Part shown: one piece after another, positions 50,045 to 55,015 of the stretch
Layout: the number at the start of each line of letters is the position of its first letter
How positions within the stretch are numbered: the first letter of the stretch is position 1
Assembly: GCF_000968135.1 (NCBI RefSeq)
Contig: NZ_FO538765.1
Span: 3,050,001 to 3,114,000 of the forward strand
Reading direction: 5' to 3'
DNA length: 64,000 nt
Origin: Magnetospira sp. QH-2
GTDB taxonomy: Bacteria > Pseudomonadota > Alphaproteobacteria > Rhodospirillales > Magnetospiraceae
The notes under the pieces: model-generated
The model's input: the letters and a program-made list of their open reading frames with translations, nothing else
What the model was told of the DNA's origin: nothing
Databases searched by the model: none
Made by a program: the position numbers and the translations under genes

Positions 50045-51130
50045 ATGGCCAGCCTGTTTCTCGACCAGCTTATGCACTTGTATCTGGAGGCCGCTCCCTG
50101 GCTGCTGTTCGGATTGGTCATCGCGGGCGCCATCAAAGCCTGGTTTCCCGAGGACGGTATCAAACGCTGGCTGGGTGGACGCGGATTGAAGCCGACGGTG
50201 ACAGCCGCCGTGATCGGGGCCCCGCTACCGCTTTGCTCCTGTGGCGTGCTGCCCGCCGCCATCGGCCTTCGCCGGGCCGGCGCGAGCCGCGAGGCAACCA
50301 CGTCGTTCTTGGTATCGACGCCCGAAACCGGGGCCGATTCCATTGCCATTTCCTATGTCCTGCTCGGTCCCTTCATGACCGTGGCGCGACCCGTTGGCGC
50401 CCTGTTCAGCGCCATTGTGACCGGCCTGATGATGATGATCTTACCGCGTGAGCCGGAAAAGACCGCCACGCCCCTGCCCCTTGCCGGACAACCCACCGAA
50501 GCCAGCTGCTCCACCGGATGCTGCGGTTCGGACGCGGCACCGGCTGCCGAAAAGAATTCCGTGGTGGCCCGCACGGTTGCCGGTGTGCGCTATGCCCTTA
50601 CCGATATTCTGCAAGATATCACGCCCTGGCTGGTGTTCGGCTTTCTGGCAGCCGCCGCTGTCGCTGCATTTGTGCCGCCTCAGGCACTGACCCAATGGGG
50701 TACCGGATTGATGGGCATGACCATCATGGTGATCATATCCATCCCCATGTATGTCTGCGCCACCGCCGCGACGCCCATCGCCGCCGGATTGCTGATGGCG
50801 GGTGTGTCGCCTGGAGCTACCTTGGTATTCCTGCTCGCCGGACCGGCCACCAACATGGCCACCATCGGCGTGGTGCGCAAGGAAATGGGCAATCAAGCCT
50901 TGATGGTCTATTTGGGTGGGATCATTGCCACGGCCATCGTGGCCGGGTTCGCTGTCGATTTGATCGCCAACCGCATGGGCATCGATATCGTCGCCGATAT
51001 CCAGGCCGCCACTGAGATCGTGCCGCTTTGGATTGCCTGGGCGTCCGGTGTCTTGCTGATGATCGCCGTGGCCTGGCCGAAATTGACCGCTATGGTGCCT
51101 TCCAAGCAAAAGACCGCCGCCGCCGAGTAA
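50045..51130 (+). CDS. Permease, SO_0444/DUF318 family (putative Cu/Zn efflux)
   Basis: Inner-membrane protein of 361 residues with about eight to ten helices in two halves. Each half carries a family motif: GAPLPLCSCGVLPAAIGLRR (about 58-77) and IPMYVCATAATPIAAGLLM (about 237-255), and a GPATNMATIG stretch. A cytosolic Cys cluster (CSTGCCG, about 158-164) sits in the loop between halves and could bind metal. Relatives are named Cu/Zn efflux transporters or ArsP-like organoarsenical permeases; the Cys cluster favours a soft metal, but the substrate is not proven. Stands alone; no metal-responsive regulator is adjacent. Confidence 0.85.
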   Translation: MASLFLDQLMHLYLEAAPWLLFGLVIAGAIKAWFPEDGIKRWLGGRGLKPTVTAAVIGAPLPLCSCGVLPAAIGLRRAGASREATTSFLVSTPETGADSIAISYVLLGPFMTVARPVGALFSAIVTGLMMMILPREPEKTATPLPLAGQPTEASCSTGCCGSDAAPAAEKNSVVARTVAGVRYALTDILQDITPWLVFGFLAAAAVAAFVPPQALTQWGTGLMGMTIMVIISIPMYVCATAATPIAAGLLMAGVSPGATLVFLLAGPATNMATIGVVRKEMGNQALMVYLGGIIATAIVAGFAVDLIANRMGIDIVADIQAATEIVPLWIAWASGVLLMIAVAWPKLTAMVPSKQKTAAAE

Positions 51131-51841: not shown

Positions 51842-53953
51842 TCAAGAATGACGGCCCTTGGGCAATGTAAACATCACGGTGGTTCCCTCGCTAGGCGCCG
51901 AGTCGATCCAGATCCGCCCACCGTGTCGGGCGACAATCTTGCGACATATGGCCAATCCCACCCCGGTTCCTTCGTACCGTTCGCGCTGATGCAGACGCTG
52001 GAAGATCACGAATACCTTCTCGTGGTAGGCCGGGTCGATGCCGATCCCATTGTCGCGGACCTCGAATAAAACGTGGTCGCCCATCTCCGTGGCAATGATG
52101 GCCACATGCAAAGCGCGATCGGGATGCTGGAATTTGATCGCATTGCTGATCAGTTGATCGAACAGCCGCGCCACTTCATGGGCGTTGCAGGTCAGCAATG
52201 GGTCGTCCTCGGGCAGGACGATCCGGGCTCCCGAAACCTCGGCGCCAGGACCCAAATCCGCCATGACTCCATGGAGAATGGATGAAAGAGAGACCGGTTC
52301 GCTGTCTTTTGGGGCCTGTCCGACGCGCGAATATTGCAGTAGATCCTTGACCAGCTTGTCTAGCCGCAGGGCGCCTTCGCGGGCGTAGGCGATGAACTCG
52401 AGCCCCGAGGCATCCAAGCTGTCCGAGAAATTGCGTTCCAGCAAAGAGACGTAACTGGCGACCATGCGCAATGGCTCGCGCAGGTCATGGGAGGCAACAT
52501 AGGCAAACTGTTCCAGGTCGGTATTGGATTCCTCCAAGCGTGCCACCAGTCGCGACTGTTTGTCTTCTGCTTCCTTGCGCCGGGAAATATCGGTCAAAGA
52601 CAACACAGCACCATGGCTCTCTCCCCCTTCAAGGCCCACAGACGCCATGCTGATCAAAAACGTGCGGCGCCCTTTGTCTTTGATGCTCAAGGAAAGCTCG
52701 ATGCTGAATTCCGTCGTCTCGCCGGTCAGCCCCTGAACAACCTGGACCAAATTGTTGTCTTCGTCTTCATCCAGGAAATCCTGCAAGGGACGATCCACCA
52801 CAAGATCGGGAGAACGCCCCACGAGGTCGCAAAAGGCCCGGTTGAACTGTTCAACTTCTCCCAGGTCGTTGATGAACAGCAAAGGAGTGGGCGCCGCATC
52901 CAAAATGGCTCTGTTCAGGCGGGTCTGCTCCGCCAGGCGGGTCGCGTTGGCATACTCCCTTCGACGGTCCATGCGGATCAAGACAATGGCCAAGGCCAAA
53001 AGGATCACAGTGATGAACAGGCCCACCACCACATAGACGATGATCTGATGGCGCCAGGGCGCCAGGGCCTTGTCCGACGACTGGGCGACGACGGCCACAA
53101 GCGACAGCTTGTCCACAGAGAAATAGCTGATAATTCTGTGCTGGCCATCGGTGACGGTCCGGGTTTCATAGGTGTTGTGCGGGGTATTCTCAATCTGCCG
53201 AAACAACGGCCCATGGAAGAAAGATTTTCCCATCATTTCCGCTTTGAAGGGGGCCCTTGCCACCATGTAGCCATCTCGTCGGACAATGGTCAGGACCACC
53301 CCTGACTTCAGGTCGAAGGCGGCAAAGAACCGGTTCAATTGATCCAGTTCGATGGTCCCCAAGACCACACCGTTGAACCTTCCGGTGTCATCCCGCCGGA
53401 CCCGCGCCACGGGCAAAACCCAGGTGCCGGTGATCTTCCCCAGCATCGGGATGCCGACCAGGGTTTCCAGGTCCGGGTTTTCCTTCAACTTGAAAAAGAA
53501 ATCCCTGTCGGCCACGGAAATTGTGGCGGCCGGCGCATGGAAGGCGCCGTCCCGACCAGGTATGGCACTTTGACAAAACTGACCGTCGGCATCCACGAGA
53601 CTGGCGCTAAATAGGATATCGGTGTCCAACACCATTCGCCCCAGTTGATCGGTGATCTCGGGATCAAACGACCTGGACGGGTCGCAGGCCGGCAGATTGC
53701 CATCCATCAACTGCAGGCGCGTTTCGATCACCGTAAAGGTCCGCTCCGTGTAGGCCGCCAAACCCCGGGCCAGATTCTCAGAGGCCTCACGCACCGATTG
53801 CAACGTGGCATCGCGAGAGCGAAAAATCTCCAGACCGATCCCCGCCCAGACCACAAGCAGGGAAAAAGCTGTCAGAAGTGCCAAAACCAGCATGAAACGC
53901 CCGGATGTAATCCGAGCCTTTTCCTCAAACTGAAGGCCGTTCAATTCTACCAT
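51842..53953 (-). CDS. Membrane sensor histidine kinase with PAS domain
   Basis: A 703-residue kinase (ATG 53953; an upstream TTG at 53974 is possible). Helix 1 (about 20-42) and helix 2 (about 304-326) flank a large periplasmic dCACHE-like sensor region of 260 residues. A cytosolic PAS domain follows (about 345-460; LDAAPTPLLFINDLGEVEQF), then HisKA with His490 in YVASHDLREPLR and HATPase_c (NAIKFQ, DNGIGIDPAY, GTGVGLAICRKI). The C-terminus ends with the kinase, without receiver domain, so the response regulator is encoded elsewhere. This kinase core resembles those of phytochrome-like kinases. Ligand unknown. Confidence 0.9.
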   Translation of the reverse strand: MVELNGLQFEEKARITSGRFMLVLALLTAFSLLVVWAGIGLEIFRSRDATLQSVREASENLARGLAAYTERTFTVIETRLQLMDGNLPACDPSRSFDPEITDQLGRMVLDTDILFSASLVDADGQFCQSAIPGRDGAFHAPAATISVADRDFFFKLKENPDLETLVGIPMLGKITGTWVLPVARVRRDDTGRFNGVVLGTIELDQLNRFFAAFDLKSGVVLTIVRRDGYMVARAPFKAEMMGKSFFHGPLFRQIENTPHNTYETRTVTDGQHRIISYFSVDKLSLVAVVAQSSDKALAPWRHQIIVYVVVGLFITVILLALAIVLIRMDRRREYANATRLAEQTRLNRAILDAAPTPLLFINDLGEVEQFNRAFCDLVGRSPDLVVDRPLQDFLDEDEDNNLVQVVQGLTGETTEFSIELSLSIKDKGRRTFLISMASVGLEGGESHGAVLSLTDISRRKEAEDKQSRLVARLEESNTDLEQFAYVASHDLREPLRMVASYVSLLERNFSDSLDASGLEFIAYAREGALRLDKLVKDLLQYSRVGQAPKDSEPVSLSSILHGVMADLGPGAEVSGARIVLPEDDPLLTCNAHEVARLFDQLISNAIKFQHPDRALHVAIIATEMGDHVLFEVRDNGIGIDPAYHEKVFVIFQRLHQRERYEGTGVGLAICRKIVARHGGRIWIDSAPSEGTTVMFTLPKGRHS

Positions 53954-54209
53954 GGTGGTCCGTTTTTCCCCCAAGCCATCAATATCAGCCCCTATCCGAA
54001 AAGATAAGAAAAAACACCCGGGGACACGGAGGTCGCCTCGCCCAGAGGGTAGAACCGCCCCAATCCGCTTTTGAGATGACCACTATCAATGCCCGATTAA
54101 GCTACTTATACGAAACACAGACCAAAATTCCTCCCGAATAGATAATATGGGCGATCACACCCCCCTCACAATCTCAAAAAAAATATGGGTATTGGTCACC
54201 ATGGCACTT

Positions 54210-54222
54210 GATAATCATTATC
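54210..54222. promoter_or_regulatory. Fur box 1
   Basis: GATAATCATTATC is a perfect 6-1-6 inverted repeat equal to the Fur core, and it continues in phase with CATTAC to the right, as in overlapping Fur-site arrays. It lies in non-coding AT-rich DNA 420 bases before the small membrane-protein gene and 256 bases beyond the start of the divergent kinase, so its target promoter is uncertain. Confidence 0.75.
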
Positions 54223-54547
54223 ATTACCAATATAAAAAACCATAGAAATATTCGGGTTACCTAATTCGATGGCGCGACTTGGCGCGGATGACTCGAATAA
54301 CTGAACCACCAAGAACCTTGTGAGACCGCTATGTTGAATCACTCGAGCCATCAAACCGAGCCGGTTTTCACCACCAGGCGGTCGTCAACCCATCGGATTT
54401 ACCGCTTGCTGGGCGCTATGTTCAGCCCACGCAATGCGCAAGCAACACGGATTCGGTTTCATTAGCCGATTCGGACTCTCTGGGCCCAAGACACTTGAAC
54501 GACAAAGCACTAACTCGTTGATATATTGGAGCACACAAACCACTTGC

Positions 54548-54562
54548 TAATGATTATCATTA
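54548..54562. promoter_or_regulatory. Fur box 2, upstream of small membrane-protein genes
   Basis: TAATGATTATCATTA is a perfect 15-base palindrome that matches the central part of the 19-base Fur consensus. It lies 67 bases before the ATG at 54630, the right place to cover a promoter. Iron-loaded Fur would be expected to repress the two small genes downstream. Confidence 0.78.
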
Positions 54563-54629
54563 ACGATATGGTGCATGAAACAGCCCGATGAGGGCCGCCA
54601 AGACATTCTTTTGATCAGGAGCCAAAACC

Positions 54630-54734
54630 ATGGATCTTATTTCTCTCGCCATCGCCGCCCCCTTGCTAATGCTTTACAATCGCAGCCTTCACAAAGGCGC
54701 CGAACAGAAGTATCCTCGCATTCCGCGCCGCTAA
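54630..54734 (+). CDS. 34-residue membrane miniprotein behind a Fur box
   Basis: ATG with AGGAG 8 bases upstream. The peptide starts with a hydrophobic stretch (LISLAIAAPLLML) long enough for one short membrane helix, followed by a basic tail (HKGAEQKYPRIPRR). Too short to assign a family. It lies 67 bases after Fur box 2 and 26 bases before the Cys-rich membrane protein gene, suggesting a two-gene iron-repressed unit. Good ribosome site and gene order support it; there is no independent evidence of translation. Confidence 0.6.
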   Translation: MDLISLAIAAPLLMLYNRSLHKGAEQKYPRIPRR

Positions 54735-54760
54735 ATCGGATTCTGGGGACCCGCTAGATC

Positions 54761-54943
54761 ATGGATACAGACAGCCTCATATTGGCCGCAATACTTCTCG
54801 CCTGCCTCGCCTATGTGGGCCGCAAGGTTTACCGCATGGTTCGCCCGGGAGCGGGAGGCGCCGCCTGCGGCGGAGGCTGTGGATGTAGTAGCGATACCGC
54901 TGCCAGCTGCGGCGCGGCGCCGCAAAAGCCCGTCGAAAGCTGA
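54761..54943 (+). CDS. FeoB-associated Cys-rich membrane protein-like
   Basis: A 60-residue protein with one N-terminal membrane helix (about 6-21; LILAAILLACLAYVG), a basic stop-transfer region (RKVYRMVR) and a Cys cluster CGGGCGC plus one further Cys in the tail. Helix then basic patch then Cys-rich tail is the layout of the FeoB-associated family, which works with the ferrous iron channel FeoB. Here no feoA or feoB is adjacent, but two Fur boxes precede it, supporting a role in iron handling. It ends just before a strong terminator. Confidence 0.8.
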   Translation: MDTDSLILAAILLACLAYVGRKVYRMVRPGAGGAACGGGCGCSSDTAASCGAAPQKPVES

Positions 54944-54986: not shown

Positions 54987-55015
54987 ACAAAGGGACCGCT
55001 TAGCGGTCCCTTTGT
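54987..55015. terminator. Bidirectional terminator
   Basis: A perfect 13-base-pair hairpin ACAAAGGGACCGC / GCGGTCCCTTTGT with a three-base loop, with T-rich and A-rich edges so it can act on both strands. It separates the convergent iron-linked small genes and pagL, 26 bases before the pagL stop. Confidence 0.88.

Follow-up and report, generated by a model that had tools for sequence, protein, structure and literature searches.

A pair of small membrane-protein genes in the window, the whole 64-kb stretch of DNA analysed here, probably forms a two-gene, Fur-repressed iron-starvation unit, read from tandem promoters, that makes a FeoB accessory acting in trans; we give this reading a probability of about 60%. 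The unit is probably a known type with modest variation, namely a displaced, iron-starvation-induced helper of the ferrous-iron importer, and we found no evidence for the distinct iron route that the preliminary description had considered. The genome comprises a 4,021,307-bp chromosome and a small second contig. MamD and Mms6-like proteins are encoded in it, so the host is probably a magnetotactic alphaproteobacterium. Elsewhere in the window, positions 50045–51130 hold the gene for an SO_0444-family Cu/Zn efflux transporter (NF033936, 426 bits).

Both operators and the layout of their promoters can be read directly in the DNA. Fur box 1, TGATAAT-C-ATTATCA (54209–54223), and Fur box 2, TAATGAT-T-ATCATTA (54548–54562), are the two perfect palindromes noticed earlier, each a 7-1-7 inverted repeat, with full extents of 54209–54229 and 54545–54565. 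No other site in the window comes within three mismatches of the 19-bp Fur consensus (mean in shuffled sequences, 0.01). Genome-wide, box 1 alone matches TGATAATNATTATCA with zero mismatches, two sites including box 2 match with one mismatch, and 14 sites match with up to two, versus 2 for the reversed control pattern. The boxes are nearly identical, and each is embedded in a plus-strand promoter. P1 (54207–54236; box TGATAATCATTATCA plus an overlapping second half-register) is sigma70-like, TTGATA-17-TATAAA, and the best promoter-like match (10/12), and P2 (54543–54572; box TAATGATTATCATTA) has the same layout, TTGCTA-17-TATGGT. The box overlaps the −35/−10 region in both, as expected of Fur-repressed promoters. 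Transcription would start near 54243 from P1 and near 54579 from P2. The frames of P1 (cTTGATAATCATTATCATTACCAATATAAA) and P2 (cTTGCTAATGATTATCATTAACGATATGGT), each with a −35 element, 17 nt, and a −10-like hexamer, are identical to the one found at feoA in this genome (cTTGGTAATGATACTCAGAATCAATAGTAT), and the three elements lie at a common offset in all three promoters. In 4.05 Mb, the operator-promoter pattern TTGNTAATNATNNTCANNA is matched exactly only at feoA, P1, and P2; as it was derived from these sites, it fits them by construction, and the informative result is the count of zero other exact matches in the genome. With up to one mismatch allowed, the pattern gives nine matches over both strands, of which P1 and P2 account for four, and the reversed control pattern gives one. 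A minus-strand promoter-like site (54142–54171) lies ~40 bp from Fur box 1 and would suit the dCache histidine kinase gene at 51842–53974.

The genome encodes three Fur-family proteins, the best of which is a true Fur (PF01475, 135 bits). Its nearest solved structures, 4RAY/4RB0/4RB2 and 4RAZ/4RB1/4RB3, are the set solved for Fur of Magnetospirillum gryphiswaldense MSR-1, and the two proteins are close over residues 17–151 (1.7e-65). Lys15, Tyr56, and Arg57, which touch DNA in the MSR-1 structure (PMC4506495), are conserved in an alignment read by eye, the first in the loop GMKMT and the others in TVYRTV. The MSR-1 protein binds a GATAAT-type box in vitro, with structures of DNA complexes available (PMC4506495), and represses both the feoAB1 and feoAB2 operons (PMC3251581). 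That Fur represses P1 and P2 is thus a well-grounded prediction, since a true Fur of this type is present and the MSR-1 protein has these activities. Together with the operator-in-promoter layout common to the genome's own feoA promoter, this upholds the Fur control proposed earlier.

The distal gene (54761–54943, plus strand) encodes a 60-residue, Cys-rich membrane protein, as first described. The product belongs to PF12669, scoring 33.3 bits against a cut-off of 27, and in the genome-wide search it is the sole member above this threshold (32.4 bits). The predicted structure has one N-terminal helix (res. 3–27) followed by a disordered tail that carries cysteines 36, 40, 42, and 50; all relatives keep C40, and nearly all keep C50. 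Because a basic stretch follows the helix, the positive-inside rule suggests that the Cys tail is cytoplasmic. The start is preceded by none of the Shine-Dalgarno words tested, and the frame scores −3.7 bits for codon use. Scans of the sequence collections found no close relatives, and no solved structure related by sequence was found. The biochemical role of PF12669 proteins is unknown in the literature (PMC8749426, PMC10669500); their presence in species lacking feoC has been discussed, and a 2022 study still left open whether these proteins are produced as functional peptides at all (PMC8749426).

This PF12669 gene is an orphan by position only. The locus contains no FeoB transporter gene; the genome has a single feoA, which lies with the first feoB at a distance of 2.03 Mb, and a second feoB at 120 kb, so that the reported absence of feoA/feoB nearby and the suggestion of a FeoB encoded elsewhere both hold, with two copies. 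The feoAB1 genes are followed by a diverged 54-aa PF12669 relative (15.2 bits, below the cut-off). The feoB2 gene comes directly after, and overlaps, a gene for a pyridine-nucleotide-disulphide oxidoreductase-type flavoprotein (L048:6037–9350); an inverted-repeat-like sequence is found directly 3′ of feoB2, and the region has no feoA, PF12669 neighbor, or comparable Fur box. In related genomes, a PF12669 gene sits directly 3′ of feoB in most loci, in agreement with the rule that such genes usually follow feoB. The exceptions are the window locus, one further orphan (G037, L018), Magnetospirillum copies that head the mms6 operon, and a few loci that lie at contig ends or show no detectable feoB. 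TGA-containing Magnetospirillum matches from the order-wide search were partial and low-scoring and were set aside. The window protein aligns best to feoB-linked copies and to the G037 orphan. As most related genes lie directly behind feoB, the orphan Fur-controlled copy is best viewed as a relocation and not as a new system; the simplest history would be that a PF12669 gene once linked to feoB was separated from it and either retained or acquired Fur control of the feo type.

A different role, in which the 60-aa protein now serves iron handling in magnetosomes instead of general FeoB support, appears unlikely. The mms6-operon gene of Magnetospirillum may be such a case. In the Magnetospirillum genome G101, the orphan PF12669 gene (L049:8281–8484, minus strand) is the first gene of an operon that continues with mms6, mmsF, and two more genes, back to back with mamG-mamF-mamD-like genes; by position it would be mgr4074 of MSR-1, which is listed without a function (PMC3197154). 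Some mms6-like and mamD-like genes in the genome of the window also have Fur-type boxes in front of them, which fits a report, cited in PMC3251581, that in an earlier MSR-1 fur mutant only Mms6 changed among the island proteins. Against recruitment, the pair lies away from magnetosome genes, and the alignment scores of the 60-aa protein are higher with feoB-linked copies (66–100) than with the mms6-linked one (54). The boxes themselves are at L047:8980–8994 (genome position 1076979), before a MamD/Mms6/MamG-like gene 3′ of feoAB; at L068:1501–1515, before an mms6-like/mmsF-like pair or a divergent small membrane gene; and at L074:1501–1515, before a full MamD gene or its divergent neighbor. 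A further box (L065:1501–1515) lies just upstream of a cation-efflux gene (CDF, PF01545), possibly an iron exporter. In G108, from the same order, a 13/14 Fur-type box (L053:13067–13081) stands ~300 bp 5′ of an ORF whose resemblance to MamI was judged by eye only.

The proximal gene of the pair (54630–54734, plus strand) would encode a 34-aa basic membrane peptide, MDLISLAIAAPLLMLYNRSLHKGAEQKYPRIPRR, with a single helix. The hydrophobic-basic ORF and the good ribosome site described before are both in place, with AGGAG at 54617–54621 and the ATG 8 nt further on. The window holds 106 ATG ORFs of 30–40 aa, and only two, this one included, combine a 5-base Shine-Dalgarno sequence with a hydrophobic stretch. 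The frame scores +6.8 bits for the codon use of the window and its shifted frames −12 and −16 bits, although this measure says little about frames so short, as the −3.7 bits of the 60-aa frame illustrates. A helix is predicted at residues 3–27 (mean pLDDT 82). Codon use, Shine-Dalgarno sequence, and membrane helix make the frame look translated. The expectation that it would be conserved in relatives was not borne out: the best hits were not credible, at E 0.12 in 150 relatives and, interrupted by an internal stop codon, at E 0.05 in 385 genomes of the class. These samples partly overlap and their nearest genomes belong to other genera, so absence is weak evidence and the gene is neither proven nor killed. 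Pfam, NCBIfam, and PHROGs gave zero matches. A shared MDxxSLxxAAxLL raised the idea that the peptide is a shortened paralogue of the 60-aa protein, which was rejected as unproven because 7.5% of composition-preserving shuffles reach that score.

That the 34-codon frame encodes no functional protein and serves as an upstream ORF to control how the 60-aa protein is translated is a possible but minority reading. Its ribosome site is the better of the two, and its end lies 26 nt 5′ of a start that has no tested Shine-Dalgarno word, and the failure to find a homologue in either genome sample suits a merely regulatory frame; its codon use and well-predicted helix better suit a selected membrane peptide, and folding of the leader RNA does not exceed that of shuffled sequences. 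In size, single helix, and charged tail, the peptide also resembles type I toxin peptides, but a toxin-like peptide is very improbable here: a promoter scan found no antisense promoter-like site over the frame, and the peptide appears to be co-transcribed with an iron-family gene under Fur. The P1–P2 interval (54243–54542, plus strand) may be a long leader of the P1 transcript or a separate RNA. As the best promoter-like match, followed by ~300 nt without a coding-like ORF (a 44-aa ORF there is not coding-like), P1 could drive its own Fur-repressed small RNA, a functional analogue of RyhB or PrrF, leaving P2 alone to serve both proteins. We consider this improbable, as no Rfam family scores above gathering in the interval, its folding is not beyond that of shuffled sequences (z −1.2), the terminator scan gave no plus-strand terminator there, and no relative was available for comparison. 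PreQ1 and STnc540 matches (20.4 and 18.5 bits, below gathering values of 39 and 38) were dismissed as chance. Beyond the 60-aa gene, the strong terminator of the preliminary description is only partly borne out: there is a strong symmetrical hairpin (54987–55015; 13 bp, −31.8 kcal/mol with flanks, z −7.9), but it has no downstream U-run and was not reported by the terminator scan. It lies between the convergent 60-aa and PagL-like genes and is terminator-like, possibly for both.

In the favored model of a FeoB accessory unit, Fur-Fe(II) would occupy both boxes when iron is plentiful, covering the −35 hexamer and spacer and blocking RNA polymerase. When iron is low, P1 and P2 would fire along with feoAB, whose operator is the same. 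By its single helix, the 60-aa product would insert in the membrane, probably with the Cys tail in the cytoplasm, and would act as the trans PF12669 accessory of a distant FeoB, accepting, gating, or sensing Fe(II) on the cytosolic side; this iron response, the metal binding, and the partnership with FeoB we infer. The 34-aa peptide may be a lineage-specific single-helix companion, whose translation may aid that of the weakly primed 60-aa frame. Co-regulation favors FeoB1 as the likelier partner, with FeoB2, which has no partner of its own, as the alternative. Several points speak against this model: FeoB1 is already paired with a diverged 54-aa protein, the FeoB2 region has no comparable Fur box, the 34-aa peptide is conserved in none of the genomes searched, and the operator mapped at MSR-1 feoAB1 is of another type than GATAAT (PMC4506495). 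A bolder version, in which the peptide is a new iron-starvation-induced micropeptide that, with the orphan PF12669 protein, regulates FeoB in trans and tunes ferrous import between general use and magnetite formation, is speculative and improbable. With a PF12669 copy uncoupled from feoB under the same Fur operator, the gene can be deleted or tagged with the transporter untouched, which makes PF12669 function testable, and the mms6-operon copy ties the family to magnetosome iron supply.

The 60-aa protein is like known PF12669 FeoB-associated proteins in its family match, single N-terminal helix, short basic stretch, and Cys-rich tail, and differs from them in that its gene lies away from feoB, with tandem Fur promoters of its own and a 34-aa companion. 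It would share with FeoC the role of a small Feo accessory; FeoC is cytoplasmic, whereas the 60-aa protein is predicted to be anchored by a membrane helix. The orphan mms6-operon gene of Magnetospirillum likewise belongs to a magnetotactic bacterium and is away from feoB, but sits in a magnetosome cluster, has lower similarity, and showed no comparable Fur box. The closest regulatory parallel is the feoAB operon, Fur-repressed in MSR-1 (PMC3251581): P1 and P2 follow the operator-promoter pattern of feoA in their own genome, although the operator mapped by footprinting at MSR-1 feoAB1 is not of the GATAAT type (PMC4506495), and where the feoAB operon carries the transporter, the window pair carries the accessory alone.
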